From Ferribacterium limneticum (lineage in GTDB: Bacteria > Pseudomonadota > Gammaproteobacteria > Burkholderiales > Rhodocyclaceae): a stretch of DNA of 64,000 nt. This document shows, one piece after another, positions 21,257 through 48,877 of the stretch. Below the pieces are notes generated by a model. It was not told where the DNA came from. It did not search any database and saw nothing but the letters and a program-made list of their open reading frames with translations. The position numbers and the translations under genes are program-made. Position 1 is the first letter of the stretch. Each line of letters opens with the position of its first letter. The stretch is from the NCBI RefSeq assembly GCF_020510585.1, contig NZ_CP075190.1, positions 923,501 through 987,500 on the forward strand. Direction: 5' to 3'.

Positions 21257-21273
21257 GTAAAATCAAACAGTTA
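21209..21273 (+). repeat. attL: 65-bp direct repeat overlapping tRNA 3' end
   Basis: It runs from the anticodon stem through CCA and 17 nt beyond, and is identical to 59287-59351. Downstream, similarity continues imperfectly into the terminator hairpins. The crossover cannot be placed more precisely within the identity. Confidence 0.92.
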
Positions 21274-21554: not shown

Positions 21555-23363
21555 TCATTCCTTACCCAGTTCCTTGAGCATTTTGGAGAGATGTAGGGAC
21601 CTCTTTTCAACAAAGGACGGGTAAGACTCAAAATCGAGTGGCGCATCTGCCGGGATGAGTAGTCCGTCCAGGCTGAGTCCTTTTTGCTCGTTGAGCCACT
21701 CAGCAAATGGCCGATCCTGTTTTGATTTGTTTCTAGACTCATCCAAGAGATGAAGATTGACGATGCTGTTCCAGTTTTCCCGATTTAGGAAAAAATCCAT
21801 GACATCTTGTTTTCCTCTCAAAAAGGCGCATTGGGAAAGCTTGTCGGGTCTGAAGGATGCCTCTGGATGGATATGATCTTTTTGCAGTGCTCGTGTGTAA
21901 TCAAGGTCTGGCATTAGCAATGCCAAGATGGAGAAGCAGGACGCATCATCTTTCTGGGTTTTGAGCAATCGGCTGATGAAGTCATCATCGAAAAGCAGAT
22001 CTTTGCTATGCCCCCGGTAGTCTTCGATGATCTTCGTCAGAGGGAATGACTCTGCTGACATATTGGTCTTGATAATCTTGCGCAAGTTCGTCAGCAGTGC
22101 ATCACCTTGGCCGCCGAAAACGCCTTTGAGTAATGACATATGCAGCCACTGCCGAATCAGTTTTCGATCTTGTACGTGAAACGCTTGCTTGTTGATGCTT
22201 GAGAACACCCCCTTCTTCTCAGCGAAGGCATCACGACCTTTGTGATACAGGTAGTAAGCAATGGGAATGGCGGCGTTCTTTGCACGTAGAGATGCGTCGT
22301 TGAGACCAAACGACCGGATTAGTCGGAACGTCTCCAAGATGCAGGCACTGATTTCATCCCATTCACTCTCAATTCTGGCAACCTGCGCACCGGCGAAGTT
22401 TTCGACCTTGAAACGGATGTCGGCATCCGTCAACGCCAACGCAGCCTTCAATATCCAGTCGCGATCAATTGAGAACTCCATATCAGAGCCAAACCTGACC
22501 TTGTCCACCAGATCGTCGATCTGCTGACGCGCATCCTTCTTCCAATTCGCGATGGCGATCGACATCAGCAAATCGGAAAATGATAGTGGCGTCCCGCCGT
22601 GATTGGTGCGAATAAAGATATCCAGGACGTGGTCGATTTTCTGACTGGTCTCGTTGTAGTAATGAATCAGGGTGTCGCATCGAACAGCGAAATAGAGCCG
22701 CGTCAGTGTTTTTCTGGCATAAGTGTTCGACGACATGCCAACCGTTTCAAGGTGGGCCAAGACTACGTCTAGAACCTGGTCTGCTGTCTCCACTTTTTCG
22801 AGATCCAGCACATCACCGACAAGAAACCAACATTTGCCGGCGGTAGATTTTTCTCGTTCTTGCTTGGTCAGGAAGGAGAACTCAAAAGACATCATCTCCT
22901 CGTTACGTTCTTCGTCCAATGGCGCCGCGATATTCAGATAGAGCCGCCTTGGGGGCAAAACTGAATCATCTTGAGTTTTTGGCCACCATTTGCGAGGCAA
23001 CCTATACGCGTAAGTGCCTTTCAGGCCAATATACAGAGAAGTCAGTCGCTGCTGGCCATCAATGACAGCTTGGAAATTTCCGTGTCCCTTTGTATCGAAG
23101 TCCGGGTTGTTTTCCCCGAACCGTTCGCAGTACTTTTCCAAGAACTGGTAGAAGCGGAAGTTGCTCTTGACCTCCGCATCGCTCACCTCCCAGAACATGA
23201 AGGTGTTGATAGGATAACCACGCATAATCGAGTCAAACAGCACTTCGATCTGGGACGTGCTCCATGTGAATTTTCGCTGTATCGCGGGCAGGAGATACCG
23301 GCGAGAGACAATGTTTTGGATTGCCTTATCGATAGAAATGGCCTTTTCGTACTCACCTGACAT
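21555..23363 (-). CDS. DUF262/DUF1524 (GmrSD-like) nuclease-related protein
   Basis: 602 aa. The N-terminal DUF262 domain has PAIQRKFTWSTSQIEVLFDSIMRGYPI and the diagnostic IDGQQRLTSL (about residue 105), a ParB-like nucleotide-binding site. The C-terminal DUF1524 HNH-type region has DHIHPEASF near residue 500 and NLHLLDESRNKSKQDRPF. GmrSD family members cleave modified phage DNA in an NTP-dependent way. It is the last gene of the DISARM operon, 53 nt after drmC, so it may be an accessory or an independent defence gene. Confidence 0.85.
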   Translation of the reverse strand: MSGEYEKAISIDKAIQNIVSRRYLLPAIQRKFTWSTSQIEVLFDSIMRGYPINTFMFWEVSDAEVKSNFRFYQFLEKYCERFGENNPDFDTKGHGNFQAVIDGQQRLTSLYIGLKGTYAYRLPRKWWPKTQDDSVLPPRRLYLNIAAPLDEERNEEMMSFEFSFLTKQEREKSTAGKCWFLVGDVLDLEKVETADQVLDVVLAHLETVGMSSNTYARKTLTRLYFAVRCDTLIHYYNETSQKIDHVLDIFIRTNHGGTPLSFSDLLMSIAIANWKKDARQQIDDLVDKVRFGSDMEFSIDRDWILKAALALTDADIRFKVENFAGAQVARIESEWDEISACILETFRLIRSFGLNDASLRAKNAAIPIAYYLYHKGRDAFAEKKGVFSSINKQAFHVQDRKLIRQWLHMSLLKGVFGGQGDALLTNLRKIIKTNMSAESFPLTKIIEDYRGHSKDLLFDDDFISRLLKTQKDDASCFSILALLMPDLDYTRALQKDHIHPEASFRPDKLSQCAFLRGKQDVMDFFLNRENWNSIVNLHLLDESRNKSKQDRPFAEWLNEQKGLSLDGLLIPADAPLDFESYPSFVEKRSLHLSKMLKELGKE

Positions 23364-23416
23364 ATAAGATTCCTTATTTCAATACAGGCACAAAGGACTG
23401 CTCACACGTAGCATCG

Positions 23417-24178
23417 TCAAACCGGGGAGACAATTTTCGTGTCGACGAGTGAGCGCAGGTGTTCATCAAGCAATTTCGCTATTCGTCCACCAGAAATCAG
23501 TACGCCAGCCTCCATGTTTTTTTCCATAGCGTGTCCGGTGAGGTTCGCACTGGTGATGAAACACGTCCTGCCATCTGCAACGGCGACTTTGGCGTGAACG
23601 CGGCCATCGGAAAACTGATCGGCCTTGTCGCGCCAAGCATAGAGTTTGGCGGCCGGAACCTGCGTTCTCATCTTGCCTATTGCATCGAAGGATATGCTAC
23701 CGCCGTGATCCTGAGACAATTCGAGAAGCATTGAGATGGCCACACCGCGATTACTTGCCGCATTCAATGCCTTGACGATGGTCGACACGTCGTAGGCCAC
23801 AAAGCTTGTGATGAACAGACACTGTTCAGCGGAGTTGATTACCTGCAAAAGCGCTTGCTCGGTACGACGAGCCGATACGAAAGGCGTCGTCGGGCCAGTC
23901 CATACGAGTTCCGTTGATTGCTCAGAAGCTGCCTTGCTGTAAACGTGACTGGCAACAAGAAGCATTGATGCCAGTTCGTCCGAGCCGACCTTGGTGTTTT
24001 GCCAGGCAACCGCAAGTTGCTCGACCACGGTGCTGGCCACCGGGGTTCCGACCACACTCGACAACGCCGTCGCAGCCTTGCTGGCATCGGTTCGACGAAC
24101 GCGTGCGGCAACGGCCAGTACCTTTTCGGGCGAGACCAGAGAGACCAAGGCTGCAATGGCATCCAAGAGTTCATCCAT
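23417..24178 (-). CDS. drmC: DISARM DrmC, phospholipase D-family protein
   Basis: 253 aa from the ATG at 24176-24178, just after the drmB stop; an alternative start at 24217 adds 13 residues overlapping drmB. An HKD-like motif is seen at HAKVAVADGRTCFITSANLTGHAMEKNME (about residues 190-220). A PLD-like nuclease fold is expected. In DISARM, drmC is a core-locus gene though reported as dispensable in at least one tested system. Neighbours drmB and drmA confirm identity. Confidence 0.88.
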   Translation of the reverse strand: MDELLDAIAALVSLVSPEKVLAVAARVRRTDASKAATALSSVVGTPVASTVVEQLAVAWQNTKVGSDELASMLLVASHVYSKAASEQSTELVWTGPTTPFVSARRTEQALLQVINSAEQCLFITSFVAYDVSTIVKALNAASNRGVAISMLLELSQDHGGSISFDAIGKMRTQVPAAKLYAWRDKADQFSDGRVHAKVAVADGRTCFITSANLTGHAMEKNMEAGVLISGGRIAKLLDEHLRSLVDTKIVSPV

Positions 24179-24179
24179 G

Positions 24180-26039
24180 TCAGAAGCCCTTGAACAAAGC
24201 GGCGGCGGCGCGTTCAAGTGTTGGCATGAGTAGCGATCGATCCAGATAGCGATTGCCCCGCTCGCAAGAGGTCTCTGCCACTAGAGCGCATGCATGGCAA
24301 GCAGCCCCATGTAGGGAGCGATCCTTTTCGGGATCATGTTCTGCGCATAGCGGATCGGATGAGCAAATCTTCGAACGATTCAGTGCTTGCTCCAGCAGGC
24401 GACCAAGGTTTTCTGGTTTACCAAGATCAACGAGGCCGCCCAGCGTCCCGTCTGAATCTGCTGCTGCGGTATAGATGAGGATGCCCGCCTGCGGGCTGTC
24501 GCCCGACGTATCGGCATAGATGCGCTCTCGAATGCTCGCAGCGTTGTATCCACACTCCAGCGCCAGCTCGCGAATCAGCAGATGAGACAGCGTGTGCAGC
24601 ATTGCATAGCGAATGCCGGGGTAGCCGTCGTTCGGGTCGAGATGACGCGAATTACGCCATCCCTTATGACCACCACGGAGCATCTGGTCGACGTTCTTCA
24701 CGCCATCCAAAGCTTCCCACTTGATGAGCGCGGCTTCATCAAATTGAACGAAAATCCCTTCGCCATGAACCTGGTTGGCTGGCACCCAATCGGGCTTGCT
24801 GCGCGACAGGCTGGCCATTTGAGGACGCTCATTCGGGTCGCCGGACTCTTCGGGGGCTTCGACACGAGTGAAGCCCAGCAACGCGCTCACTTCACGTAAG
24901 CGCTCAAGGAGCAAGACTCGACTGATATGGCTGCTGAATCCCGGTGGCGTGCCGACCTTTTTGCTCATGAAGTGCGGGTAGTCCGTGGGCGGGTTGGCCT
25001 CTGTCAGTACATCCCACTCAGGTCCTTTGATGTCGGCCTCGCCCACGACCTCCTGTCCGCCGCCTTTGCGGTGCGTCTCAATGGCCGACCAGATCGACGC
25101 TGCCGGATACTTGTCGATTCCAGGCAACGCCCCGGTCTTCTTCAAGGTCTTCACTGTCACCGAGACCTCGGCCTCGGAATCGAGATCTTCGAAAAACTCC
25201 CAACCATCCTGGACCAGTTGGCTGAGTGGGTCTTTGGTCTGGGGAATAGCGAGAGCCGAGAGCGTTATCGGGAACCAGCTATTGGTGGCTCCCAATAGAA
25301 CCGCGCGTGCTTCCTCGTCACATTCGTTGTCGAAGTGGTCAAGGTGGGGATGTCGCCCTCGGCAACGCGGCAGATTCTCTTTCCCCGCCTTGCCGAATGC
25401 ATGCGCCATGCTTCTTGATGCACCACAGGCATCACACTTCACCCAGAGATTTTCCGTTTGCAGCGACGCGCCGCTCTCGAAGAAGCGCAGAGTGCCTTTG
25501 CACGAACTGTTACCGCCATGGACGAAGTAGTGCCAAGGGAAGTCATCAAGGTGACCGTCGCGGCAGGCCAGCAGGAAACGTGCGGGAACGGCATCCGCAT
25601 CCTTGGCCGGTTGGTCCCCTTTTGAGCCACGACAACCTTTGTGCACAAAGCGGGTTCGCTCGGGTCTGTACCGACTTTCCTTGATCTCAAACAGCCCGGC
25701 ATCAAAGGGCGACAGCAAACCGCACTTCACACACCGCATCCACCGCGGAAATGGCCGCACAGGAACACCAATGGTCGCCTCCGGAGAATATTGGTCAGTT
25801 ATTTCACTCAATCGGAATGGCGGCATCCGCAAATTTTCGACCTGCGCCCCGAGAACCTTTCGAACGGCTGCCAAAAGCCGTGCCTCTTGAATCGGCTGGC
25901 AGCGGTCCTTTTCCCATCTGTCGATGCCAAGCGTTACCACAGAGAGGCTCGGTAGGTCGATCAGTGCCCCAGGCCCATAGGTCCACAGCAACTGGCTGGG
26001 GCGAACTTCCCCGACGGGAGTTTTGTTGTTGAGAATCAT
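24180..26039 (-). CDS. drmB: DISARM DrmB (DUF1998 protein)
   Basis: 619 aa from the ATG at 26037-26039. A TTG at 26045 overlaps the drmA stop, but GAGG sits 8 nt before the ATG and only 2 nt before the TTG, so ATG is preferred. Two Cys-rich zinc sites: CVKCGLLSPFD...HKGC (~105-145) and CDACGAS...CRGRH (~200-225). The DUF1998 region is C-terminal (MLHTLSHLLIRELALECGYNAASIRERIY) with a further Cys cluster (CSSDPLC, CHAC). DrmB forms the DrmAB complex with the helicase DrmA, which binds phage DNA. Confidence 0.92.
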   Translation of the reverse strand: MILNNKTPVGEVRPSQLLWTYGPGALIDLPSLSVVTLGIDRWEKDRCQPIQEARLLAAVRKVLGAQVENLRMPPFRLSEITDQYSPEATIGVPVRPFPRWMRCVKCGLLSPFDAGLFEIKESRYRPERTRFVHKGCRGSKGDQPAKDADAVPARFLLACRDGHLDDFPWHYFVHGGNSSCKGTLRFFESGASLQTENLWVKCDACGASRSMAHAFGKAGKENLPRCRGRHPHLDHFDNECDEEARAVLLGATNSWFPITLSALAIPQTKDPLSQLVQDGWEFFEDLDSEAEVSVTVKTLKKTGALPGIDKYPAASIWSAIETHRKGGGQEVVGEADIKGPEWDVLTEANPPTDYPHFMSKKVGTPPGFSSHISRVLLLERLREVSALLGFTRVEAPEESGDPNERPQMASLSRSKPDWVPANQVHGEGIFVQFDEAALIKWEALDGVKNVDQMLRGGHKGWRNSRHLDPNDGYPGIRYAMLHTLSHLLIRELALECGYNAASIRERIYADTSGDSPQAGILIYTAAADSDGTLGGLVDLGKPENLGRLLEQALNRSKICSSDPLCAEHDPEKDRSLHGAACHACALVAETSCERGNRYLDRSLLMPTLERAAAALFKGF

Positions 26040-26041
26040 GT

Positions 26042-29000
26042 TCAATCCTCATCCTTCGTTGCGGGACGAGGCATCCAATCGTGGTCGTCCGCGATATGGC
26101 TCGTGTTCATGATCAGGCGCACGCCGGGCTCCACTTCCCGCATCGACATCGGCACGGTCCAGTTGTCCCAGGTTTGAACCCCCGGTGACTTGATCAATGC
26201 AACAGTCTTGTCTTTTTCGGGGCCACGTTTCTCATACGCCAAAATCCGTCCGCCCTTGCTGACTTCTTTCGCCCATTCGTCAGCGCGCTCTTTCAGTTCA
26301 GTCTCAGCCAACTGCTTACGCGAGTTGTCTTCAGCAACATTACCCGCGCGAGTCGCCAATATCTTGATGGCATCCGTCATCTCGGCCTGATTGGATATAC
26401 TCAGTTGGCCAGCACCTTCGTTTGGGCTGAAGACATCGTTCTTGAGGCGCATCAAACTCAGCAGTGCGCCCGTCAAACCACGGTCCATCGCTCGTGGTGA
26501 AAATGGCGTTACCGATTGGGCCTCGACGTGTTTGTAGAACGTGGCATGGTAATGCTCGAAGGTTTCGTAGTGGGACAGGTCGCGCGGCCTTGCCCACGTT
26601 AGCACCGTACAGACCAAGCCCGGGAAGGAGCGCCCCACACGGCTGGTGGCCTGAATGTATTCGGCCGTTCCTTTGGGTTGCCCGTTCACGGCCATCAGGC
26701 CGAGCCGATTCACGTCAACGCCCACAGACAGCATGTTGGTTGCCAGCACGACATCAATGGCGCGCGTGTCGCCCTCCTGCCAGCGGGTCACGTACTTGCC
26801 GGTTGCAGTGTCGAACTCGGACTTGAACTTGACCTCCAGATTGTCAAGGTACTTGGGGATGTCCTGGCTCGACACCCGAGACGTCAGTTCGCGAATATTG
26901 CTGATGCTGCGTTGTGCCAGTGCGGGGCGCTCCACCATGCTCATTTGCACGCGGTAGGAACGTGTCTGCACATCGTCCTCTGCCAATCGCTTCATGCCGC
27001 CCAGCTCACGCAGGGAGTTGAAGTAGCCGACCATGGTCATGTACGGGTCAGCGGGTTCGCCAAAGTGGTCGAACAGTGCCTGGGCAGCGGTCAAGAAAGC
27101 GGTGTAGACACGGATCAACATCGCAGGGCGTGAGCTACCGGGGGAGCACACGCCAAGGTAACGCCGCCCTGGCTTCTCTTCGATTGGCCGTTGCACCGAG
27201 AAGAAGTTGTCTTCCACATCCAGACCGTGTGGTGGGAAAACCGAAACACGGCGCATGAACACGTTGTTCACTTGCTCCTTGGCTTTGCGCACCGTCGCTG
27301 TGGAGGCAATAATTTTCGGTTTGACCGTCTTGCCATTGAGCGTCCAGCCGCACAGTTCATCCACGGCGGTCTCATACAAGCCGACCATGGTACCCAGCGG
27401 CCCACTGATCAGATGGAACTCATCCTGAATGATCAAGTCAGGCGGGCGAATCGGACTGATTGTCTTTACCTTCGCGGAAGGTAGCCCCTTGCCAGCTTGG
27501 TGGTTGCCATTGCAATCGGCACCTTGCCAAAGCAGGCCGTGACGCTCGCATTCCTGCCCCACGCGACCAAACAGCGTGCGCACCTGACCGCGCCACGCCA
27601 TCATGGCGAACTTATCCACGGTGGCGATCATCATCGTCGGTGGGCGGTGGTAGATTTCTTCGTCAACGACCAGCACCGGAATTCCCGGGTGCGGTTGTTT
27701 GCTGGATTTGCCCTTGGAAAAATCGCAGCGGGCTTTCTTGTCCCCGCAGTAGATGATCGTACGGTTGATGTTCCTATCTGCTTCGACGTCCTTGCCAGGA
27801 TCAACTTCGGAGCCGCACCAAGGACAACTGGTGAGCTGTGCAGGAGATGCCAGGCCAGCCTTGTTTTTCGTAGAGTCACGTTGAGCAAGAATTGCTTGAT
27901 GGCTGTCCTCGGTCGTGCCCGGAGTCACCTTGTTGCCAACCCAGAGGCCGATGGTGAAAGGCTCGGTGCCGAGGGATTTGTCGCCCTTGTCCAGCGCCTC
28001 TCGCCGCAACACTTCCATGGCACAAATCAATGCGGTGGCACGCTGGAACTGTTGCAGCGTCAGCAAGCGCAGCGTGTAACGCATGATCACGGCCAAACCG
28101 CGTGAGCTGTCGAACCCACCGAGATTGCCCTGCTTGCGCCGAATGGCCATAGTGAAGGCCGCCACGCCCAAATAGGCTTCGGTTTTACCGCCGCCTGTAG
28201 GGAACCACAGCAGATCGGCATAGGCCTCGACAGGCTCAACGCGATCCGGGTGACTCGGATCTGCCAGTGACGGAATCGAGAGCAGCAGAAACGCCAACTG
28301 GAATGGACGCCAGCTGCGGTTCTTCAGCACATCGAACTTGTCGAGGGTGACATCCTCGCCCCGGCGCATGGCCAGCGCGTATTGGCTGCGCACGCGTTGC
28401 GTCGCCATCGCTCGGTTGGCAAACCGGAAGGCCGCCAGCGCCTTCTCATTGTCTTTCAGCGTATCGATACCCTGCTGCAGGCGTGTGTGGATCTCCTGGC
28501 AGCGGTCCATCGCTTGTTGCGACTGGGTGTCATAGCCGGTCACCTCGGACCCGACGCGTTCGCGCTGCTCATCAATCCACGCGGCATAGTCCTTGGTCAG
28601 CATGCTCAAGGCGTCGACCAGCGGCTCAATGTCCAAAGTCGCCAGGCGCTGCATATCGAGCAAGCCGCTGTCGACCATTTCACGCATCGCTGGGCGATCG
28701 CTTGGATCAAGCCCGGGCGTCTCCGTGACCTGCACCTCGTACTGCGGCATCACCGTGGTGCGTACCTCGGTGGCCAGCGTCACGTCGTCCGCGGTTTCGG
28801 CATGGACGGCAACGCCATGGCCCACGGCGAACTCGACACGGTTGCGGTAGATCATCTCCAGCGCTTCGCGCTCCGGGTCCATGCCATCCGCATCCAGTAC
28901 CGGCCTGCGCCGGAAGATGGCGCGTTTGGCGGCGTCCTTCTCCGAGCGAACGATCAGCTCGGGCTGGAACACCCACACTGTATCGCGGTTGGTGTCCGGC

Positions 29001-30046
29001 TCTTCCTGTGCATTCACCAGGAACAAGGTGATCAGTCGATCGCCATTGGCATTCTTGGCCCGAATGGAACCTTGCACCCGAACCTCGGGGAACTCGCTGT
29101 CAGGTGCCTGGTGCGGAATCACGCCTTCGGTCAGCGGCAGCACGATCTTGCCGCCACAGGGAATGCGCTGCCAGACCTTGGCTTTGGTCTGCACCTCGGC
29201 ACCGGTTTCCTTGTTCTTACGGGTGCGGAATATCTCGTGCTCGTCGCTACGTTCATATCGACCCCAGCGCGCTTCGATCTCAATCTGGTCGGCGTCACCA
29301 TCCACGCAGAAGGTCATGCCAAGGCTGCTGGGCACCAGTGATTGGTTGCTGGCGGCATCGATCTCGTCAGCCGAATCCGACTCCGGCTCCACACGCCCGG
29401 TGGCGGTTCCAAACTCCGCACCCGGCTCGTGCCGTCCGGGCGCTTTGGCCTCAGTGGGCTCTTCGGCGTCGTCATTGGCCAGTGGCCCGTCCAGCCCCTC
29501 AATACCGCCCTGTGCGGCCTCACGCGGGGCTAGTTTGCCAACCAGATAGCGGTCGCGCACACCCATATCGACGATGCGTTCACGGGGGCCGCCTGCGGGA
29601 CCGAGCAGGTCGTCCATCACAGCCAGTTGCAGCAGTTCGCGGATATAGGCCTGATCCTCAATGGTCGGCACTTCGGCGATGGTCTTGTGCAAGGCCTTGG
29701 GGAGAGACTCCAGAAAATCCGTCCATTGAACACGGCCAATGCTGCCGGAAGACGGCGGGGTGAGCGATTTAAGACCAATCGAATCCGCCGGATCAACCAA
29801 CAACATGCGGTCGAAGTAGATCACGGTTGTTTCCAGATCCGAACGTACCCGCAACACACGACCGATCCGCGTGATGTGACCTGCGGGACCGAGGATCAGC
29901 GCCCAATCGTCATCTGCGATTGCTTGATATAGGGATCGCTCGCCCTTTAGGACGAGGATGTATTGTGACAGCTCTGAAGAGCCTACCAGGCAATGGTCAA
30001 TGGCAATCCATGCGTTGTTATTATTGTTTTGCGTAAGGTCTGACAT
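26042..30046 (-). CDS. drmA: DISARM DrmA helicase
   Basis: 1334 aa SF2-type helicase. Walker A is WFPTGGGKTEAYLG at about residue 617; DExH box IIQDEFHLISG near 874; motif III IASTATVR; motif V/VI LATNMLSVGVDVNRLG and YIQATSRVGR near 1134. A CPWCG...C zinc site (about 740-780) lies within the helicase core. The long N-terminal half (1-550) is acidic and Pro-rich around 190-230. It is the core ATPase of DISARM. It lies 68 nt after the 331-aa gene and is translationally close to drmB. Confidence 0.93.
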   Translation of the reverse strand: MSDLTQNNNNNAWIAIDHCLVGSSELSQYILVLKGERSLYQAIADDDWALILGPAGHITRIGRVLRVRSDLETTVIYFDRMLLVDPADSIGLKSLTPPSSGSIGRVQWTDFLESLPKALHKTIAEVPTIEDQAYIRELLQLAVMDDLLGPAGGPRERIVDMGVRDRYLVGKLAPREAAQGGIEGLDGPLANDDAEEPTEAKAPGRHEPGAEFGTATGRVEPESDSADEIDAASNQSLVPSSLGMTFCVDGDADQIEIEARWGRYERSDEHEIFRTRKNKETGAEVQTKAKVWQRIPCGGKIVLPLTEGVIPHQAPDSEFPEVRVQGSIRAKNANGDRLITLFLVNAQEEPDTNRDTVWVFQPELIVRSEKDAAKRAIFRRRPVLDADGMDPEREALEMIYRNRVEFAVGHGVAVHAETADDVTLATEVRTTVMPQYEVQVTETPGLDPSDRPAMREMVDSGLLDMQRLATLDIEPLVDALSMLTKDYAAWIDEQRERVGSEVTGYDTQSQQAMDRCQEIHTRLQQGIDTLKDNEKALAAFRFANRAMATQRVRSQYALAMRRGEDVTLDKFDVLKNRSWRPFQLAFLLLSIPSLADPSHPDRVEPVEAYADLLWFPTGGGKTEAYLGVAAFTMAIRRKQGNLGGFDSSRGLAVIMRYTLRLLTLQQFQRATALICAMEVLRREALDKGDKSLGTEPFTIGLWVGNKVTPGTTEDSHQAILAQRDSTKNKAGLASPAQLTSCPWCGSEVDPGKDVEADRNINRTIIYCGDKKARCDFSKGKSSKQPHPGIPVLVVDEEIYHRPPTMMIATVDKFAMMAWRGQVRTLFGRVGQECERHGLLWQGADCNGNHQAGKGLPSAKVKTISPIRPPDLIIQDEFHLISGPLGTMVGLYETAVDELCGWTLNGKTVKPKIIASTATVRKAKEQVNNVFMRRVSVFPPHGLDVEDNFFSVQRPIEEKPGRRYLGVCSPGSSRPAMLIRVYTAFLTAAQALFDHFGEPADPYMTMVGYFNSLRELGGMKRLAEDDVQTRSYRVQMSMVERPALAQRSISNIRELTSRVSSQDIPKYLDNLEVKFKSEFDTATGKYVTRWQEGDTRAIDVVLATNMLSVGVDVNRLGLMAVNGQPKGTAEYIQATSRVGRSFPGLVCTVLTWARPRDLSHYETFEHYHATFYKHVEAQSVTPFSPRAMDRGLTGALLSLMRLKNDVFSPNEGAGQLSISNQAEMTDAIKILATRAGNVAEDNSRKQLAETELKERADEWAKEVSKGGRILAYEKRGPEKDKTVALIKSPGVQTWDNWTVPMSMREVEPGVRLIMNTSHIADDHDWMPRPATKDED

Positions 30047-30114
30047 CCACGTTCCTTAAACTTTGAATTCACTGGCAAGCTTAGAAAACTCGCCATCTAC
30101 ACCCTCGTCACTTT

Positions 30115-31110: not shown

Positions 31111-31113
31111 CGC

Positions 31114-32529: not shown

Positions 32530-32601
32530 TCAATTCCCCTTCGGTTCAATGGCTTTTTTCGTAGCAAAGAATGTTGCCGCCTAATCATCACCCATTCACT
32601 T

Positions 32602-37300: not shown

Positions 37301-38768
37301 CCAGATCATTGCGCACCCGGCTGGCAGAGCTGCCAGAGCGTTCTTGCAGCAACTCGGCCAGTCGCGCGGCACCATCCAATCGCGCTGAATCCAGCTCGGC
37401 CAACTTGACCCAGGGCGTTTTCGCGCTCTTGGTGGCATCCAGTTCCAGCGTGACTTCATCGGTACGCTTGACGGTGCGTTCAAGCAGCCCCTCGTACACG
37501 TAGCCGATCTGTTCGACATCCAGTGCACGGTAAGACAGCGTGCGGCCCTGGAATTGCTGAATAGCCTCCAGCAACAGCAGCACGGTGCGGTTGTCGATGG
37601 GCAGTGGCTTGGCTGCATCGCTGCGCCAGTTCGATCCTTTTGCGCGACCTTCGAGGAAAGGAAAGCGGTCTGGATCAAACAGTGAGCCGCCCAAGGCTGG
37701 CAGGCGCAGGTTTTCGTGCTCAATGCCGCCGAACACGGCGCGGAAGGTCGACAGCAGGCGCGACCAGGCATCCCAGCGGCGCTCCAGAATTTCCTCGGAC
37801 TCTTTGCGCAACTGCATGCGCAAGGTGGAAAGCGCGTAATTGGCTTCGTAGCGCTCGTCGCCCATCAGGAGCAGGCCACGCTCCTCTGCTGAGAGCAGGA
37901 ACACCAAACGCATCATCACCGTCAGCGCGGCTTCATACAGCTCGGGTTCTTTGACGTCGTGCAGGAGCTCTCGATTGCGGTCCTGATCGGCTTTGTCGAG
38001 TGTTTGGATCAATACTTCGACGGCACGGCGTACTTGCTCGCCAAGGGCGTCGGTGACTTCGTCCTGGAACTTCAGAGAGCGATCGAACAGCGCGGGCAGT
38101 TGTTCGGATTCGTCGACAAAGAAACGACGAATGCCGAGAAGGTGCACGAATGCCTGCAGCGTGATGGGTTCTTGGCTCCAGATGCGGGCATACCAACTGG
38201 CAAAGGTGGTGACGGCCCCCACCGGGGCATCTACCAGCATCCAGCGCTCGCCGTTGGTCACCAAACCGAGTCGACAACCCAGCGAACGGCACAAAGCAAC
38301 CATGCGCTCGGCGGGGGTGGCGACCCAGCCGTCTTGCTTCAGAGTGGCATCAAGGTCGGCATCCTGCGCATAGGATTGGATCAGGAGTAGCGCCTTGTTG
38401 GCGCGTTGCTCATCAATCACCGCAAGATCAGGCGACAGTGTCACTCCGTGTTCGGGCAAGCTGGCTTGGAGGTTGGCGGCGCACCAGCCGGCGCGCTTGA
38501 GGACGTTGCCTTTACCGTCTTCGTCGAGCTCAAGGCTACGCGATAGCACCTCTTCGATCCACGCACCGTGCAATTCGGCGAACTGGGCGTCTTCCAGCTC
38601 CAGCGCTTCGAGCCACTCCTCGTAGGCTTGGCGCAGACGTTTGCGTTTGGTTCCGTTAAGTTCTTCCAACCCTTGTGGAAAGGCTTCCTTCAGAACGGGA
38701 ACTGCGAGGAAAGGGCCGGAGATCTCGATCAGCGACAGCCAATCGTTGTGATGGTTGTCTTGGCTCAT
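34389..38768 (-). CDS. drmMI: DISARM DrmMI adenine-specific DNA methyltransferase
   Basis: 1459 aa. Motif I DPAMGSGAFLVQACRW near residue 600 and motif IV NPPFLGGQRITG near 872 define an N6-adenine methyltransferase of the Eco57I/class 1 DISARM type. A long N-terminal region (1-~530) and a C-terminal target-recognition region (GDDLNSDPEQRPSRWAINF...) flank the catalytic domain. It marks host DNA as self in DISARM. Its start overlaps the DUF2075 gene stop (ATGA). Confidence 0.92.
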   Translation of the reverse strand: MSQDNHHNDWLSLIEISGPFLAVPVLKEAFPQGLEELNGTKRKRLRQAYEEWLEALELEDAQFAELHGAWIEEVLSRSLELDEDGKGNVLKRAGWCAANLQASLPEHGVTLSPDLAVIDEQRANKALLLIQSYAQDADLDATLKQDGWVATPAERMVALCRSLGCRLGLVTNGERWMLVDAPVGAVTTFASWYARIWSQEPITLQAFVHLLGIRRFFVDESEQLPALFDRSLKFQDEVTDALGEQVRRAVEVLIQTLDKADQDRNRELLHDVKEPELYEAALTVMMRLVFLLSAEERGLLLMGDERYEANYALSTLRMQLRKESEEILERRWDAWSRLLSTFRAVFGGIEHENLRLPALGGSLFDPDRFPFLEGRAKGSNWRSDAAKPLPIDNRTVLLLLEAIQQFQGRTLSYRALDVEQIGYVYEGLLERTVKRTDEVTLELDATKSAKTPWVKLAELDSARLDGAARLAELLQERSGSSASRVRNDLAKPVDDTLADRLLTACQGDTELRDRVKPYAHLLRTDPWGYPLVYPAGAFIVTTGSDRRETGTHYTPKSLTEAIVAETLTPVVYIGPAEGTPREQWALKSPTELLDLKICDPAMGSGAFLVQACRWLSNRLVEAWSQVEASCKTVSVDGEVLDARAAKEPLPRDGEARTVIARRLIAERCLYGVDLNPLAVELAKLSIWLVTLAKGRPFGFLDHNLRCGDSLLGIHRLDQLTQLSMNPTGQGQLRLFGQNIERTVREAIELRQRLREIPIRDIRDVEVMAHLDADARRRLEVPESIADSFIGEVFASGGNSAGLENTLTSLTIQAGQAIDGDRDVCASMRRRLVCALSTDQPADKPARRPFHWPLEFPEVFVSERGGFDGMVGNPPFLGGQRITGVAGTAFRDWLVAHIAEGRRGSADLVAYFFLRAWSLLREGGGFGLLAVNTIAEGDTRQVGLEAMVGAGAIIHAAHPNEPWPGKAAVVTSRVHVHKGEWSGERSLLGQPVSFISAFLSNREEWSPKRLRANAGLAFQGCITRSLGFILSSDEACRMLDADPKNADVIFPYINGDDLNSDPEQRPSRWAINFWDWPQKRAQEYRLPWECIEERVKPDRFRLRDDGHYVCAEPLRDEWWLYEGRRVGLFHAIGRGHHFERHPEGSSSENSQTNRVMVCSEVTKYLSFVLISNDSIMSDRADVFRNGGSFAICQSSLHDVWARLHSSRLETRLKYSIGNAFETFPFPDHPHNEPQEQGAHLHQLRSTLMVEDGIGLTKLYNRFHTATERDPRIEGLRASQREMDATVARAYGWDDLNLEHGFHEVPYLPENDRVRFTISEAARLEVLRRLSKLNRQRYEEEVAQGLHGSKATHTAKRAPRTKSASSSQPSFDFDAISANENSYPIAAEPRANYQAGPAHAITKYLSTNVGWHAKTDILGATGITDGQWNAGIADLIAGGRVERQGEKRGARYRATDTGGTA

Positions 38769-40786
38769 GGCTGACCTCCTTCGAAATCTTGTTGAAGCTC
38801 AGGAACGCCTGCGGCCAATAACAGTTGCGCGGTGCGTTCGAATCTGGCCGGATCAAGGGTCGGGTCGTCTGCGTTGCCAGGCGGAATCCAGATGACCATA
38901 CCGAGACGCGCGCGGGTGAGCAGAACTCGATAGCGATTGCACACATAGGTCCGTTCAGCATCACCACGCACCTGTTGCCACACGCTGCCGCGAAATTTTC
39001 GGTACTCCCAGCCGCCCTGCTCCGAGGGGGTCAGGTCGCCCCCCCAGCACAATCCCACCCAGTCGAGCTCAAGCCCTTGGCATTCGAACTCGGACGCTGC
39101 GACTTCAAGGGAATGACTCGAACGGACATCTGTGGGGGGCATGAGAAACCATTTCTCAAACGAGTAATCCTGCCGAAAGGCGCTAGAGCGCTCAAGGCCA
39201 TAGGCTCGTAGGCGTTGATCCTCTGACGTGGCGATCAAGCCGGCGCGCTGCCCGTTTTCCGGTTCGCTCCTGGCCCGCAGCCACGCCTTGGCGACTTGGA
39301 GATCACGAGTGAAATGGAGTGGGAACTCCCGGCGATCGGGTAAGAGCGACTGTGCCCGCTCAGCATCAAGGGTGAGCAGTGCATCGACACATTCCGCCAG
39401 TCGTTGAGCACGAAAACTCCGCACCCCGACACTCAGGTGAGCCAAGTCCTCTGGCCGAAACTCTATACCAGGAGGAACGCCGTCGCCAAACAGGCGGTGC
39501 CCGGATACGCTCGCCCCTCCAGAGACGACCTCAGGTGAAGCGACGACTCGCCAATGGGGGCGATCTGCCACAGCGCGCCCCCATTCCTCTAGTCCGGCCT
39601 CACCGAGAAAGATCTCTTGCCCACCCCCGACGAGGGCGATGATTACAGCCCATCCGTTCAACCGATCCATCACGTCGAAGAGTTCGGCGGCCTCCGAAGT
39701 GTCCACGCCTTGCTTGCGCTTCATCTGCTTACGGTCCCATGCGCGTTGGGCTTCATCGAAGACGACGACATGCTCGTGTGGCAGTGCCGAGGGGTTCTCG
39801 CGGTGGTAGCGTAAAAACTGGTGGACGTTCTGGATGAAGGTCGAGACCTCGTGAGCACTATCCTGGCGCCGACGGCCAGCACGCTGTTGACTCAGCACCA
39901 AGGCCTCGCGCACAACCTTGACTAGGGGGCCGTTGCCAGACAAGAAGATGGCACAAGGGCCGTTCTCTGCACGAAGAGAAGGATCGTGAACGACATTCAG
40001 CCCAGTCAGCGTCTTGCCTGCACCCGGCACGCCAGTTATGAAGCACACATAGCGTCGGTTCAACGTTCTCGCTTCTCTGATCACTTCCGCCAGCAGGTCC
40101 GTCGTTGCGTCCAAGTTACTGGCGTAGCTGTGGCTGATCTCGCGAACGTCGTGGTTTTCGTAGAGGCGTTCGGCCGCTTCGATGACCGATAGAGTGGGAC
40201 GATATGGTGCGTCGCTCCAGGTGTCGGCGTCAATGGACGGTTTGGCGGAATCGTGTTGTGCCGAGAAGGCGGACAACAGTACAGCGGTCAAATCGCTGGC
40301 GTTCGCGAGCCGCATTGGTGCAACACACGAACACGACATTGAACTCAAGCACGTGACACTTGGTGCGGTCGTGGAACAAAGCACTGGTACGATCGCGCGT
40401 TCGGCACTGCCGCTATGGAAGTCACGAAGGTTCAAGCAGTAGTTTTCTACTTGCCAGCGGGCCGAGGCATCATGAGATGGAGAGCCGATCTTGAACTCGA
40501 CCACTAGGATCACATCCTCGGCGAGGAAGATTGCATCCGGACGTTTCTGTCGGCGTGGCAGCTCATACTCCAGGATCAAATGCCAGTCCTTGGCCGCCTC
40601 GTGCCGTTCGATCAGTTCGTGTGCGCAATGTTTCAAAAGTGTGATCTGGGTCTTCCAGGTCTCGATCTGAGTCGTGCGTGTGCTCTGGATGCCTGTCGAG
40701 GCAACTGAGTCGGTGAGCTCGCCAAGTAGCAGGGTTTCATCCGCACCCAAGAATCTGGATAGCGTGTATCGAACCCCTCGACTCAT
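38765..40786 (-). CDS. DUF2075-type P-loop helicase with N-terminal PD-(D/E)xK-like nuclease domain
   Basis: 673 aa. RPDAIFLAEDVILVVEFKIGS (~78-98) fits the D...ExK core of a restriction-like nuclease. Walker A FITGVPGAGKTLTGLN lies near residue 257, with VVFDEAQRAW as the DExQ-like Walker B, and DWVGLCWGGDLTP...YRVLLTRARLGMVIWIPPG as the UvrD-like C-terminal helicase motif of DUF2075. Overlaps drmD upstream and drmMI downstream by 4 nt each, so it is an integral operon gene. Confidence 0.85.
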   Translation of the reverse strand: MSRGVRYTLSRFLGADETLLLGELTDSVASTGIQSTRTTQIETWKTQITLLKHCAHELIERHEAAKDWHLILEYELPRRQKRPDAIFLAEDVILVVEFKIGSPSHDASARWQVENYCLNLRDFHSGSAERAIVPVLCSTTAPSVTCLSSMSCSCVAPMRLANASDLTAVLLSAFSAQHDSAKPSIDADTWSDAPYRPTLSVIEAAERLYENHDVREISHSYASNLDATTDLLAEVIREARTLNRRYVCFITGVPGAGKTLTGLNVVHDPSLRAENGPCAIFLSGNGPLVKVVREALVLSQQRAGRRRQDSAHEVSTFIQNVHQFLRYHRENPSALPHEHVVVFDEAQRAWDRKQMKRKQGVDTSEAAELFDVMDRLNGWAVIIALVGGGQEIFLGEAGLEEWGRAVADRPHWRVVASPEVVSGGASVSGHRLFGDGVPPGIEFRPEDLAHLSVGVRSFRAQRLAECVDALLTLDAERAQSLLPDRREFPLHFTRDLQVAKAWLRARSEPENGQRAGLIATSEDQRLRAYGLERSSAFRQDYSFEKWFLMPPTDVRSSHSLEVAASEFECQGLELDWVGLCWGGDLTPSEQGGWEYRKFRGSVWQQVRGDAERTYVCNRYRVLLTRARLGMVIWIPPGNADDPTLDPARFERTAQLLLAAGVPELQQDFEGGQP

Positions 40787-43700
40787 CTCGTTATTCCCTC
40801 AGGCACGAGGAAGATCACGGCGACTGGGAAGGTGCGGTCGTTGAGTTTGGCGTAGCGCGTTTCGATGGCTTGGGCCTCCTGCATGCGTTCGGCTGGAATG
40901 CGGACAAGACGGGCTTCTAATGCGGCGGTGTCGCGCCTGAGCTGTGTTCGTTCGTCTTCCGAGAACAGAGAAAGCTGCGCCGGTTGTTGATCTTCTTTTA
41001 GTTCGGCTTGAATGGCTTTTTCAAGCTCATCAAGCACGGTTTCAATGTCGGCCACTTCCTTCTGCTTGCGGGATTGAAGGGTGTTGGTCAGGAACTTGAG
41101 TCGGTCTTTTGATCGGGCGTCGACCGACTGCAGGATGGCACTTTGCGCGCAGTCGAAGCGGACGCGGATGGCATCGAACAGAGAGTCTGCGGCCGTCAGT
41201 GATTTGGCCTGCTCCAGCCATTGCTGGATTTTGGTGACGCCTTCTTCTCGGCGGAAGGATTTATCCCCCAGATAGCCCCCGGCGACCGTCAGCTCTTCGT
41301 GGAGGCGATGATGGTTGCCGCCGGTGACGACCAGCCGCGAGATTACGACCACGGCAGGGCCGTCGATCAGTGCGTCCGGCACCGAACGCACGGTGACACG
41401 ATGCAGCTTCTTCACGTCGTCCTGAGCCCAGACCTCAGCACGCAGCAAGCGCAGGCACATCTGGACCAGCCGGTGGTTCAAGTGAACCAGCACCACGTCG
41501 TCACGACCGGTGGCTACGGCGTGATCGAATGTGATCGGCCGGACTTGCAGTTTGTGCGGGTGGCGCAGCCCTTCGAGGCAACGCGCCCACGAGCCCGACA
41601 GCGCGGGTATCTTGAATACGGTGCCCGCAGGGGCGTCAGCCAAGGCAAAAGGCTCAAGCGGTGGGCGGCCTGCTAACACGAGGCCCGTCTTGACCGCCAT
41701 GAGGATGCGTTCTGGCGTGAGGTGCAAATCCTGCTGCGTGCTGAGGAGTCGTTCGTGCAGTTTGGCGACTCGGTCTTTCAGTTCGCGCTCTGCGCGCACA
41801 AAGCGTCTGGCCTTGGCGATTTTGGCTTCGGCCAAGCGGGTGTCGAGGTCCTTGAGCGAGCCTTCGATCAGCCCCGACATCTGTGGCGCGATGACTGGGT
41901 TGACGCTGCCCATGTCCGCCCGCATGGATTCAAGTTTGCGCAGCGCCCGGATGATGTCGTCACCGTGACCGCCAATGGTTGCTTTTCCCTGTTCGCCGCC
42001 ATCGACAGGGTGCCAGATCAATACTTCCTTCTGGCGCTGACCGTGCCGGTCGATACGGCCATTGCGCTGCTCCATCACATTGGGGTTGTAAGGAATCTCC
42101 AGATGGATGAGGCAGTTACAGTGGTTCTGCAAGTCGATACCTTCAGATGCAGCATCGGTGGCCAGCAGGATGCGCACCGCTGAATCCTTGGGCGAGGTTT
42201 GGAAGGCCGCCTTGACCTTCTCGCGCTCATCTTGCGGCATACCACCATGCAGGATGGCCAGTCGATCGCCACCGAAACCGTGGCTGGCGAGGATCTCGTG
42301 CATCCACTGGTGGGTGGTGCGGTATTCGGTGAACAAGATGACCCGACGCTCGCTCCACTGGCCATTGGTCTTGAGATTGGTAGCGAGCCAGTCGAGGATC
42401 GCTTTGGCTTTGGCGTCGACCTGGTTTTTGGCCGTCTGCGCCCACGACCGCAGCTCGTTCAGCATCTGTTGCTGGTCTGCTGTCAGCGGTTGCGCGCAGC
42501 GTGAGGCCTCTTCGACGGCTTCGGACTGGGCGTTTTCGACCTCCAGGTCGTTGGCGTAGTCTTCTTCCACCCGCAGAATAGCTTTGCGCAAAATGCGGTC
42601 GGCCATCGCATCTTTGTCTTTACGTTGGCTGCCATTGGCCAGGCTGGAAATGTGCTTTTCCAGGGTGGATGCGAATGAGGCGGGAGAAGAGAATAGCCGC
42701 TTCTTGAGCAATTGGTTGACGAACGACGTGCCGAAAACATTGCCGACCTTTTCGGCATCCTGCTCGCGGCTCGCGCAGTAATCGTTCAACTTCTGGTGAA
42801 TGGCGCGCTCTTGTGCTGAATACGAGGCCAGCAGCGCTTGCAGCTTGCGCTGCGCATAGAGGGGTTTGCCCTCCGCATCGACCAGGTCGCTTTTGAGGCG
42901 GCGGATCATCACCTGACTCAACTGCTTTTCATCGGGTAGGATGTTTCGGGCGAAACGCTGGTCGTCCAGGAGCTCCAGCAGCGAAGTGAAGGATTCGGTG
43001 TAGCCGTTGTGGGGAGTGGCTGTCAGAAACAGGCGATGTTGGAAGTGCGGACTGATCAAACGAATGAATCGTGTCCGCTGGCTCTCAAGCGCGTAATTGG
43101 CTCCGGCAGCGGGGGCGATGTTGTGCGCTTCGTCGACTACCAGCATGTCGAACTTGCGTAGGTGGTTGGTGCGCGCGGGAAGAGCATCGCGCATGGCGCG
43201 CAGTCCTTCGCCGCTTTTGACCCAATCCATGGATGCGATCAGGCGTGGATGCGAAGTCCAGGGGTTGGCGTGGATGCCACGCTCTCGGCGTAATTGCTTG
43301 ATGTATTCCGTGTCGACGACTCTGAAGTCGAGGCCGAACTTTTCCAGCATCTCGACGCGCCACTTCTCTTGCAGCGATGCGGGGCAAACGATCAATACGG
43401 TGCGGGCACGGTGCCGTAGCAACATCTCTTGAATGACAAGCCCGGCTTCGATTGTCTTTCCAAGACCGACGTCGTCGGCAATGAGAAGGTTGACGCGAGC
43501 CATGTCGATGGCTCGAACCAAAGGGTCAAGCTGGAAATCCTCAATGCTGACACCGCTGCGGAATGGCGCCTGCAGAAAGCCTCGGTCGGCATTGGTTGCC
43601 GCGCCCCAGCGAACTGCATCAAGGAAGGCTTCCAGTGTGTCTGAATCGTCCTGCCCCGAAATTGATGGCAGGCCTGCACGTTCTATCACTTGAGCACCTG

Positions 43701-43914
43701 GCTCAATTTCCCATACGACTTCAAGTGTCTCGCCAAGGCCGTCCTCATCAATGGAGGAGAGGGTTACCAAATTCTGGATGGTATTTGTGCCCACTAATGC
43801 TGAGGTAGAAACTTCGGCAACGACCCACTGGCGCCTACGGACTTCCACCAGTTGTCCAGGCTCGGGCGCTGCTGACATGTGTGTCGTGCTTTCTGGGTTT
43901 GGGATAACGTTCAT
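40783..43914 (-). CDS. drmD: DISARM DrmD, SNF2-like helicase
   Basis: 1043 aa. Motif I LLIADDVGLGKTIEAGLVIQ (~150), motif II MLVVDEAHNI, motif III LTATPHNGYTESF, motif V LATDAASEGIDLQNHC and motif VI QRNGRIDRHGQ form a complete SF2/Snf2 core. C-terminal ~400 residues are helical and contain two long coiled segments. DrmD together with DrmMI defines class 1 DISARM. First gene of the long operon; the start at 43914 is an ATG, with an internal ATG 12 codons later as the alternative. Confidence 0.9.
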   Translation of the reverse strand: MNVIPNPESTTHMSAAPEPGQLVEVRRRQWVVAEVSTSALVGTNTIQNLVTLSSIDEDGLGETLEVVWEIEPGAQVIERAGLPSISGQDDSDTLEAFLDAVRWGAATNADRGFLQAPFRSGVSIEDFQLDPLVRAIDMARVNLLIADDVGLGKTIEAGLVIQEMLLRHRARTVLIVCPASLQEKWRVEMLEKFGLDFRVVDTEYIKQLRRERGIHANPWTSHPRLIASMDWVKSGEGLRAMRDALPARTNHLRKFDMLVVDEAHNIAPAAGANYALESQRTRFIRLISPHFQHRLFLTATPHNGYTESFTSLLELLDDQRFARNILPDEKQLSQVMIRRLKSDLVDAEGKPLYAQRKLQALLASYSAQERAIHQKLNDYCASREQDAEKVGNVFGTSFVNQLLKKRLFSSPASFASTLEKHISSLANGSQRKDKDAMADRILRKAILRVEEDYANDLEVENAQSEAVEEASRCAQPLTADQQQMLNELRSWAQTAKNQVDAKAKAILDWLATNLKTNGQWSERRVILFTEYRTTHQWMHEILASHGFGGDRLAILHGGMPQDEREKVKAAFQTSPKDSAVRILLATDAASEGIDLQNHCNCLIHLEIPYNPNVMEQRNGRIDRHGQRQKEVLIWHPVDGGEQGKATIGGHGDDIIRALRKLESMRADMGSVNPVIAPQMSGLIEGSLKDLDTRLAEAKIAKARRFVRAERELKDRVAKLHERLLSTQQDLHLTPERILMAVKTGLVLAGRPPLEPFALADAPAGTVFKIPALSGSWARCLEGLRHPHKLQVRPITFDHAVATGRDDVVLVHLNHRLVQMCLRLLRAEVWAQDDVKKLHRVTVRSVPDALIDGPAVVVISRLVVTGGNHHRLHEELTVAGGYLGDKSFRREEGVTKIQQWLEQAKSLTAADSLFDAIRVRFDCAQSAILQSVDARSKDRLKFLTNTLQSRKQKEVADIETVLDELEKAIQAELKEDQQPAQLSLFSEDERTQLRRDTAALEARLVRIPAERMQEAQAIETRYAKLNDRTFPVAVIFLVPEGITR

Positions 43915-44053: not shown

Positions 44054-45190
44054 ATGAAAAATACGATTATCGAATCAGTCGACTTATTTTGCGGCGCAGG
44101 CGGGCTGACTGCCGGGCTTCGCTCAGCCGGAGTGAAGGTTAAGGCTGGCTACGATATCGATGCTGCCTGCAAATATGCATTCGAGCACAACAACGACGCC
44201 ACCTTCGTGTGCAAAGACGTTGGTGTTGTCTCTACCGACGAAATTGAAAAATGGTATTCAGGCAATCCTGTGCGCCTCCTTGCAGGATGCGCGCCCTGCC
44301 AGCCATTTTCCTCGTACAACCAAGGACGCGATACCCGACTGGATCGGAAATGGCCGCTGCTATATCAGTTCGCACGACTAATTCGAGAAATTAGGCCTGA
44401 GCTGGTTACGATGGAGAATGTGCCTGATGTTACGAAACATGCTGTTTACAATGATTTCGTAGCAGAGCTTAGTAAACAAGGTTATGAGGTCTGGTCTGGA
44501 ACAGTTGCTTGCGTGGACTATGGATTGCCACAACAACGTCGTCGACACGTCTTGCTGGCTTCGTTACTCGGCAATATCTCGTTGATTCCCCCAACTCACT
44601 CAGGTAGTCACCTGACAGTTAAAGATGCGCTTGGATCTTTGGCGCCGATCGAAGCCGGAATGGTTGATGCGCATGACCCGTTGCACCGTGCTGCTCGCTT
44701 GAGTCCGATAAATCAGCAACGCATTCGACTTTCTCGACCAGGTGGAACCTGGAAAGACTGGCCTGAAGAGTTGCGGGCCGATTGTCACCGTAAGCAGAGT
44801 GGGAAAACATATCCTAGCGTGTATGGCCGGATGAGTTGGAACGCCCCATCTCCTACGATGACCACGCTCTGCTATGGATTTGGAAATGGGCGATTTGGCC
44901 ATCCAGAACAACACCGGGCTATTTCGTTACGAGAGGCTGCGATTCTCCAATCTTTCCCGAAGGAATATCGATTTGTTCCGCTCGATAAAAATATTGAGTT
45001 TCGTAGTGTTGGGCGGATGATCGGCAATGCAGTGCCTGTCCGTCTTGGTGAGGTGATTGGCGAGAGTCTGATCAGTCATGTTCGGCAAGCGCTTGCCGAT
45101 GAGCAGGAAAATACTGCAAAAGACGCCTGCTCAGTGTCTCGTGATTCCTTGTCTCGCATTCCCAAAGAACCAGAACATTCCAACCCATAG
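44054..45190 (+). CDS. DNA (cytosine-5-)-methyltransferase
   Basis: 378 aa. Motif I SVDLFCGAGGLTAGLRSAG (residues ~8-26), catalytic PCQ motif GCAPCQPFSSYNQ, ENV motif VTMENVPDV, QQRRRHVLLAS motif VIII, and motif X RMIGNAVPVRLGEVI are all present, so the enzyme should be active. Divergent from drmD and convergent with vsr; the two 3' ends overlap. Pairing with Vsr suggests a Dcm-like target (possibly CCWGG), which is inference. It could serve as a DISARM self-marking enzyme of the class 2 (DrmMII) kind or as an independent protective methylase. Confidence 0.93.
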   Translation: MKNTIIESVDLFCGAGGLTAGLRSAGVKVKAGYDIDAACKYAFEHNNDATFVCKDVGVVSTDEIEKWYSGNPVRLLAGCAPCQPFSSYNQGRDTRLDRKWPLLYQFARLIREIRPELVTMENVPDVTKHAVYNDFVAELSKQGYEVWSGTVACVDYGLPQQRRRHVLLASLLGNISLIPPTHSGSHLTVKDALGSLAPIEAGMVDAHDPLHRAARLSPINQQRIRLSRPGGTWKDWPEELRADCHRKQSGKTYPSVYGRMSWNAPSPTMTTLCYGFGNGRFGHPEQHRAISLREAAILQSFPKEYRFVPLDKNIEFRSVGRMIGNAVPVRLGEVIGESLISHVRQALADEQENTAKDACSVSRDSLSRIPKEPEHSNP

Positions 45191-45491
45191 CTTCGAGTTG
45201 TTGTGTGTTTCGAGTATCACGTTCGATATTGGCTTTGAATTTTGATAGCCAATAATCTTGGTTCGTCTTCGGCGTAGAGGCGAGATGGCATGCTTCATGG
45301 CGATGCCAGAAGCAGCCATGAACGAAAATTGCAGTCCTAAACTTCGGAAGAACAATATCCGGGCTGCCAGGAAGGTCCTTACGGTACAGGCGAAACCGGA
45401 GGCCAAAGGAATGCAACACTCGACGGACTAGCAGCTCTGGCGTAGTGTTTTCGCGTCTGACTGATCGCATAATTTCGCTGCGGCTCTTCAT
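45072..45491 (-). CDS. vsr: Very short patch repair endonuclease Vsr
   Basis: 139 aa. Vsr signatures: ENTTPELLVRRVLHSFGLRFR, GSPDIVLPKFRTAIFVHGCFWHRHEACHLASTPKTN (catalytic Asp and zinc/metal site), then DYWLSKFKANIERD. It nicks at T:G mismatches made by 5-methylcytosine deamination, which fits the adjacent cytosine methyltransferase. Its 3' end overlaps the methyltransferase 3' end antisense by 119 bp, covering the last ~40 codons of each. Confidence 0.93.
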   Translation of the reverse strand: MKSRSEIMRSVRRENTTPELLVRRVLHSFGLRFRLYRKDLPGSPDIVLPKFRTAIFVHGCFWHRHEACHLASTPKTNQDYWLSKFKANIERDTRNTQQLEAMGWNVLVLWECETRNHETLSRRLLQYFPAHRQALAEHD

Positions 45492-48864: not shown

Positions 48865-48877
48865 TTTGATGATTCCT

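Follow-up and report, generated by a model that had tools for sequence, protein, structure and literature searches.

Are the extra genes of an enlarged DISARM operon integral parts of a single machine, or are they exchangeable cargo on a stable core? The question is raised by a 64,000-nucleotide stretch of the Ferribacterium limneticum genome (contig NZ_CP075190.1, positions 923,501 to 987,500; termed “the window” throughout), in which open reading frame (ORF) calling and family scans delineate a complete class 1 DISARM operon, drmD-drmMI-drmA-drmB-drmC, along with five co-directional extra genes. All ten genes lie on the minus strand between positions 43914 and 21555 (Table 1). A Schlafen-type (SLFN) helicase/nuclease gene follows drmD. 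Three genes separate drmMI from drmA, encoding an unannotated protein of 595 amino acids (p595), a GHKL ATPase and a protein with an S-adenosylmethionine-methyltransferase fold (MT35), and a GmrSD-like gene (HEC-05) is found after drmC. The initial annotation of this locus had correctly described the order and common direction of the core genes and the number of extra genes. Its further proposal of a single built-in composite machine is not supported, since plain operons exist and relatives harbour other modules in the same slots. We assign a probability of about 0.62 to the reading that the core of this class 1 DISARM operon, which is carried by a tRNA-Thr island, is a stable chassis, in which the drmD-drmMI junction (“slot A”) and the drmMI-drmA junction (“slot B”) accept exchangeable defence cassettes, while the place after drmC is less used.

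The content of the two slots was compared among 12 operons, the drmD of which is at least 66% identical to that of the window. Slot B is filled in 10 of 11 readable operons, with nine different contents, and slot A in 5 of 12. All 28 slot ORFs of more than 110 amino acids (23 in slot B, 5 in slot A) run with the operon. Besides p595, GHKL and MT35 in the window, slot B holds p595 alone (G067); p595 followed by a GHKL-nuclease gene, a second DrmD and a protein of 547 amino acids (G1078, Aromatoleum); GHKL-nuclease, second DrmD and a protein of 541/570 amino acids (G098 and G083, the GHKL gene of G083 being only 29% identical); PDC-S39 with GHKL and MT35 (G846); GHKL and MT35 (Microvirga); a helicase and a DUF2290 protein (G080); a PifA-like NTPase (G895); or a UG5-nitrilase reverse transcriptase of the DRT type (G349). 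In G797 it is empty. Slot A contains SLFN in the window and in G080, and an Mrr-type nuclease in G033, G083 and G098. Individual modules recur in the same slot of different operons: SLFN in two, and p595, the GHKL+MT35 pair and GHKL-nuclease with a second DrmD in three each. The place after drmC (within 60 nucleotides, same strand, ORFs of more than 250 amino acids) is occupied in 3 of 10 readable operons, by HEC-05, a Fic protein or a pair of 488 and 298 amino acids, and HEC-05 follows drmC in no other operon examined. A PADLOC match or a Pfam restriction-nuclease domain is present in 9 of the 12 modules of slots and tail and was found in none of the remaining three, p595, GHKL+MT35 and the 488+298-amino-acid pair. 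The 547-amino-acid protein (L002:16873-18516), which belongs to no clear family, lies between the second DrmD and drmA in 3/3 operons having it.

The sample underlying these counts was assembled as follows. DrmD scored above its cut-off in 6/101 and 11/395 genomes of the same family (overlapping samples), in 5/369 genomes of the class and in 7/398 of the phylum, the window genome being included in each; 11 plasmid records were added out of 86 with a drmA match, and these are not a random set. The comparison group comprises the window, G033, G067, G080, G083, G098, G349, G797, G846, G895, G1078 and Microvirga, nine of which come from one bacterial family; G1078 and the Aromatoleum locus L002 carry the same operon and were counted once. 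G033, the contig of which ends in drmMI, was left out of the slot B count only. Outside the group, G299, G367, G551 and G1066 (drmA not reached by the contig or the retrieved stretch), G903 (no drmA found), and G728 and Pseudanabaena (drmA and drmMI not collinear) were left out; SinoKH46 is a GHKL locus that lacks drmA. ORFs were called by a script keeping the longest non-overlapping frames, and only those exceeding 110 amino acids are shown. Plain class 1 operons lacking any extra gene occur in Deinococcus, Rhodococcus, Nocardia, G797 and G207. In the more distant operons of G817, G673, Sinorhizobium LMB1, Methylocystis and Acidibrevibacterium, slot B codes for a small protein together with a regulator of the XRE type. 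Identity among the regulators of G817, G673 and Sinorhizobium LMB1 is 49-57%; those of Methylocystis and Acidibrevibacterium were assigned by annotation.

Pairwise comparisons of close relatives reveal the boundaries of the cassettes and their exchange. The window and G067 are 86-88% identical outside the drmMI recognition part, and by blastn the window harbours two clean, gene-sized insertions: 2.0 kb with SLFN, about positions 38745-40799, versus 50 bp in G067, and 2.6 kb with GHKL+MT35, approximately positions 30017-32626 on the minus strand, versus 48 bp. G895 and G067, which belong to one genus, share 96.5% identity in the 10.7 kb upstream and 94.1% in the 18.8 kb from drmA onwards; the stretch in between, comprising the 3' part of drmMI together with slot B, gave no match and is an exchanged block with p595 in one and the PifA-like gene in the other. 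In G098 and G083, slot B is mosaic, and the sequence to either side of it is 94% identical. The Microvirga cassette is closer to that of the window (GHKL 81%, MT35 73%) than is most of the core (drmD 67%, drmMI 60%, drmA 62%, drmC 53%), with MT35 level with drmB (73%). The drmMI gene is interrupted in G349 (by IS66) and in G895.

The junctions within the window operon were measured from ATG starts, with negative values denoting overlaps. They amount to -4 nucleotides for drmD/SLFN, -4 for SLFN/drmMI, -1 for drmMI/p595, +72 for p595/GHKL, +3 for GHKL/MT35, +68 for MT35/drmA, +2 for drmA/drmB, -2 for drmB/drmC and +53 for drmC/HEC-05. The 4-nucleotide or near-zero junctions of the initial annotation are therefore found at five places (-4, -4, -1, +2 and -2), but the GHKL+MT35 pair, spaced by 72 and 68 nucleotides, and HEC-05, spaced by 53, are set off from their neighbours. 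That the extra genes are built into the operon is borne out insofar as they lie inside or directly behind it, are co-directional and tightly packed, and in several cases encode nuclease or ATPase motifs.

As a whole, the region forms a mobile island, bounded by a 65-bp perfect direct repeat at a tRNA-Thr gene and encoding a tyrosine integrase. In 2/2 genomes of the same genus tested, the tRNA-Thr site is empty: the sequence corresponding to window position 21260 or 21257 rejoins 61060 or 61059 after 14 or 16 bp, and about 39.8 kb are absent from both. Because the site is empty in these relatives, and because DrmD has no match at E<=1e-170 in 20 genomes of the genus, the operon is mobile and probably recent cargo. 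About 1.7 kb past the right repeat (59351-61059) are likewise absent from the two relatives and are perhaps a remnant of another insertion.

Mobility of the region is also in keeping with a passive defence island, in which independent defence genes would have gathered by chance beside or inside DISARM without any special slot. Relatives of p595 and of GHKL+MT35 are indeed found without DISARM; DISARM genes occur at only 1 of 34 genome loci of the p595 family, 6 of the 34 lying on contigs of less than 6.1 kb with little context. Relatives of HEC-05 are encoded in 408 plasmid records, a count of matches rather than of gene contexts. Yet, we regard chance gathering as unlikely, given that 28/28 slot ORFs are co-directional, short overlaps join the genes at slot A and at drmMI/p595, and the same module recurs in the same slot of different operons. 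The same genes do occupy the same place in other DISARM operons, but the p595 family mostly occurs apart from them.

Less probable still is an integrated, expanded DISARM subtype, as envisaged by the initial annotation, with extra proteins that would bind to the DISARM complex and depend on it for their action. The tight junctions agree with such a subtype, and so does the divergence of the GHKL+MT35 pair: DISARM-borne copies of both proteins are 73-81% identical to those of the window, whereas free copies reach only 27-45% (GHKL) and 22-34% (MT35), as if the former were specialised. In addition, p595 directly follows an MmeI-like gene in five loci (the window, G067, Aromatoleum, L009 and L010). 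However, each extra gene is absent from most of the 12 operons, the modules combine differently, and plain class 1 operons exist. Finally, it is quite improbable that the cassettes of slot B are effectors matched to a particular methyl mark, changing as specificity partners along with the recognition domain of DrmMI. In favour of this reading, the block exchanged between G895 and G067 spans the 3' recognition part of drmMI plus cargo, and in nine relatives identity to the drmMI of the window is 21-50% at residues 1050-1199 versus 65-98% over residues 150-749 (150-residue profile, the cut first stretch of G895 apart). Against it, slot B is mosaic between G098 and G083 although drmMI lies entirely within the part that is 94% identical, and type IIL-like enzymes are known to change recognition domains anyway.

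Returning to a core chassis with exchangeable cassettes, we infer joint expression of core and cassettes, the latter providing additional layers. One transcript would express a methylation-sensing core plus add-on layers. DrmMI and the 5-methylcytosine (5mC) DNA methylase encoded upstream of drmD would mark self DNA, and the Drm helicases and nuclease would restrict unmarked DNA. The GHKL pair may read the same self mark, perhaps the 5mC set by the upstream methylase, because most free GHKL+MT35 modules come with a cytosine methylase, while the DISARM-borne ones have none directly adjoining. Among seven non-DISARM loci, a cytosine-methylase-like gene adjoins in five and a Vsr gene in three. 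The GmrSD-like enzyme would cover phages with modified DNA, and the HEPN-like p595 could be a last-resort RNA cutter in infected cells where the other layers failed. A bolder version is conceivable but doubtful: the DNA-sensing core might control any slot B effector, be it a HEPN-like RNase, a reverse transcriptase, a PifA-like NTPase or a GHKL nuclease, so that one sensor would drive interchangeable killers or second-line restriction modules, with the DrmMI recognition part exchangeable along with the cassette.

By the features tested, the locus is a member of class 1 DISARM with a new architecture. DrmD, DrmA, DrmB and DrmC all score above curated NCBIfam cut-offs, and drmMI has no NCBIfam match above cut-off. 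In PADLOC, the type IIG restriction-methylase model PDLC03618 (2184 bits) outscores DrmMI PDLC02643 (1986 bits) for this protein, both models describing the same kind of enzyme, and drmD is matched best by a model labelled DrmA (1713 bits), ahead of the DrmD models (1544). The PADLOC rule for DISARM class 1, as worded in a passage of PMC9252829, calls for DrmA, DrmB, DrmC, DrmD and DrmMI encoded together without drmE. All five are co-encoded in the window, DrmMI being the one outscored by the type IIG model, and DrmE is not among the matches listed for 19 scanned proteins, four of which are represented by their best 25 matches and have a clear other top match each. Like class 1 DISARM, the window operon has the full five-gene core, in order and on a single strand; unlike it, the operon has five extra genes, two core junctions serving as insertion sites, and a 5mC methylase and a Vsr gene alongside.

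Table 1. Features of the DISARM operon and its island in window coordinates
Feature	Position	Strand	Assignment and evidence
drmD (core)	40783-43914	-	SNF2-like helicase; NF038317 1404 bits, cut-off 610; GLGKT, DEAH motifs
SLFN (slot A cassette)	38765-40786	-	Schlafen-group-3/DUF2075 helicase, N-terminal PD-(D/E)XK-like motif, PADLOC PDC-S41; PF09848 E 1.9e-78; PDC-S41 E 8.5e-224; RPDAIFLAEDVILVVEFK at residue 82
drmMI (core)	34389-38768	-	MmeI-like adenine methyltransferase; PADLOC DrmMI PDLC02643 1986 bits; MmeI_TRD; DPAMGSG, NPPF motifs
p595 (slot B)	32602-34389	-	Conserved 595-amino-acid family
GHKL (slot B cassette gene 1)	31114-32529	-	GHKL (HATPase_c_3) ATPase; PF13589 E 1.8e-8
MT35 (slot B cassette gene 2)	30115-31110	-	S-adenosylmethionine-methyltransferase fold; PF20553
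drmA (core)	26042-30046	-	Helicase; NF038325 (DrmA(S)) 1512 bits, cut-off 950
drmB (core)	24180-26045 (longest ORF; ATG start at 26039)	-	DUF1998/MZB protein; NF038324 774 bits, cut-off 240; MZB
drmC (core)	23417-24217 (longest ORF; ATG start at 24181)	-	PLD-family nuclease; NF038319 258 bits, cut-off 133; HKD motif
HEC-05 (tail gene)	21555-23363	-	GmrSD-like DUF262 protein (PADLOC HEC-05); PF03235 E 1.4e-29; HEC-05 E 3.2e-212; DGQQR at residue 102
5mC DNA methylase	44054-45190	+	Divergent from drmD; PF00145 E 7.9e-50; best PADLOC row DrmMII; CAPCQP motif
Vsr-type nicking endonuclease	45072-45491	-	Overlaps 5mC methylase tail-to-tail; PF03852 E 1.2e-27
tRNA-Thr	21183-21256		
Left attachment repeat	21209-21273	+	3' half of tRNA-Thr plus 17 bp beyond; 65-bp perfect direct repeat with 59286-59350
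Right attachment repeat	59286-59350	+	
Tyrosine integrase of island	57781-59115	-	Phage_integrase E 1.2e-10; Arm-DNA-bind_3 E 1.6e-13

The extra genes resemble components of other defence systems to different degrees. p595 may be a HEPN RNase with an Avs3-like N-terminal domain, the support for this fold being weak. Its C-terminal Rx4H motif (R532-x4-H537) is kept in 152 of 153 aligned sequences having letters there and reads RNAGSH in three loci. A predicted helix (residues 515-531) ends immediately before R532. In a passage of PMC3710099, the HEPN motif is placed at the end of helix 3 or the start of the following loop, and ApeA is described as a HEPN protein with an N-terminal domain of about 300 amino acids that is mostly beta. 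p595 is like the ApeA of that passage in its beta-rich N-terminal part and C-terminal Rx4H motif, but its profile does not match that of ApeA. Membership of p595 in the ApeA family found no support: the longer ORF containing p595 has no Pfam row at E<=0.01, that of ApeA_NTD1 (PF18862) included, and hhalign gave a probability of 0.1 on a scale of 100, both profiles being shallow (36 and 9 sequences). In a Sulfurimonas metagenome-assembled genome (L009:7290-16570), a type IIL MmeI gene, p595, a Schlafen_AlbA protein, a helicase and a T5orf172 nuclease form one run.

The last gene had initially been read as DUF262/DUF1524. The DUF262 (GmrSD_N) part is present, with its DGQQR motif, but DUF1524 is undetected by Pfam at E<=0.01, although a DHIHP motif is visible in the HEC-05 sequence. 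With the QR, DGQQR and FxxxN motifs that we assign to its DUF262 domain, HEC-05 is like GmrSD-type modification-dependent enzymes such as GrwA and BrxU, as portrayed in parts of PMC12137116; it is unlike them in the undetected DUF1524 and in its position at the tail of DISARM. In the plain Deinococcus operon, a different DUF262/DUF1524 protein (L113:4657-7560) is encoded upstream of drmD, at a distance of about 3 kb and on the opposite strand.

The GHKL blocks LLDNC-DG, DNCGGIP and GMYG-GMKR are invariant across four aligned copies. According to a section of Iyer, Abhiman and Aravind 2008 (PMC2292703), MORC/paraMORC restriction-modification operons include cytosine methylases and VSR endonucleases. 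The window is similar to the operons of that section in that a GHKL ATPase, recognised here by domain and motifs, neighbours methylase and Vsr genes; it differs in that GHKL is paired with a PF20553 protein, that this pair is embedded in DISARM and that no dedicated nuclease gene of its own adjoins it. The 5mC methylase and Vsr genes, unmentioned in the text of the initial annotation, lie within the stretch that it covered. The methylase is a usual companion of this DISARM group; it is co-directional with the operon in 11 other operons of the group and divergent in the window, and it is 47-58% identical to the window copy in 11 relatives whose drmD is 57-93% identical. Further along the island, positions 46894-50050 encode an NTP_transf_8 nucleotidyltransferase-like protein, weak Mrr_cat/HTH matches and unannotated genes, possibly another defence module, and positions 51646-56426 harbour transposase-like genes (rve, HTH), an AAA_22 protein and an OST-HTH protein.

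According to a passage of PMC9142583, “additional auxiliary genes” are typical of DISARM operons. Embedded or backup effectors are also depicted for BREX and BREX-related loci in portions of PMC12839542, where HEPN, Schlafen and other nucleases likewise serve as auxiliaries inside the core of a defence locus; unlike there, the core here is DISARM, the additions sit at two fixed junctions, and whole modules are exchanged between relatives. The portions of PMC9142583, PMC12839542, PMC2292703, PMC12137116, PMC3710099, PMC12458937, PMC8565338 and PMC9252829 that were covered contain no report of exchangeable cassettes inside DISARM; Ofir 2018 and Aparicio-Maldonado 2021 fall outside this scope, and absence from print is not claimed.

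If slot B is a hotspot for defence cassettes, reading the drmMI-drmA junction across genomes would find new defence genes, of which p595, GHKL+MT35 and the 547-amino-acid protein are candidates, and the position itself would predict a defensive role for the cassette genes. Moreover, it becomes testable whether multi-layer immunity may be built by swapping modules inside one operon, as opposed to gathering whole systems side by side.

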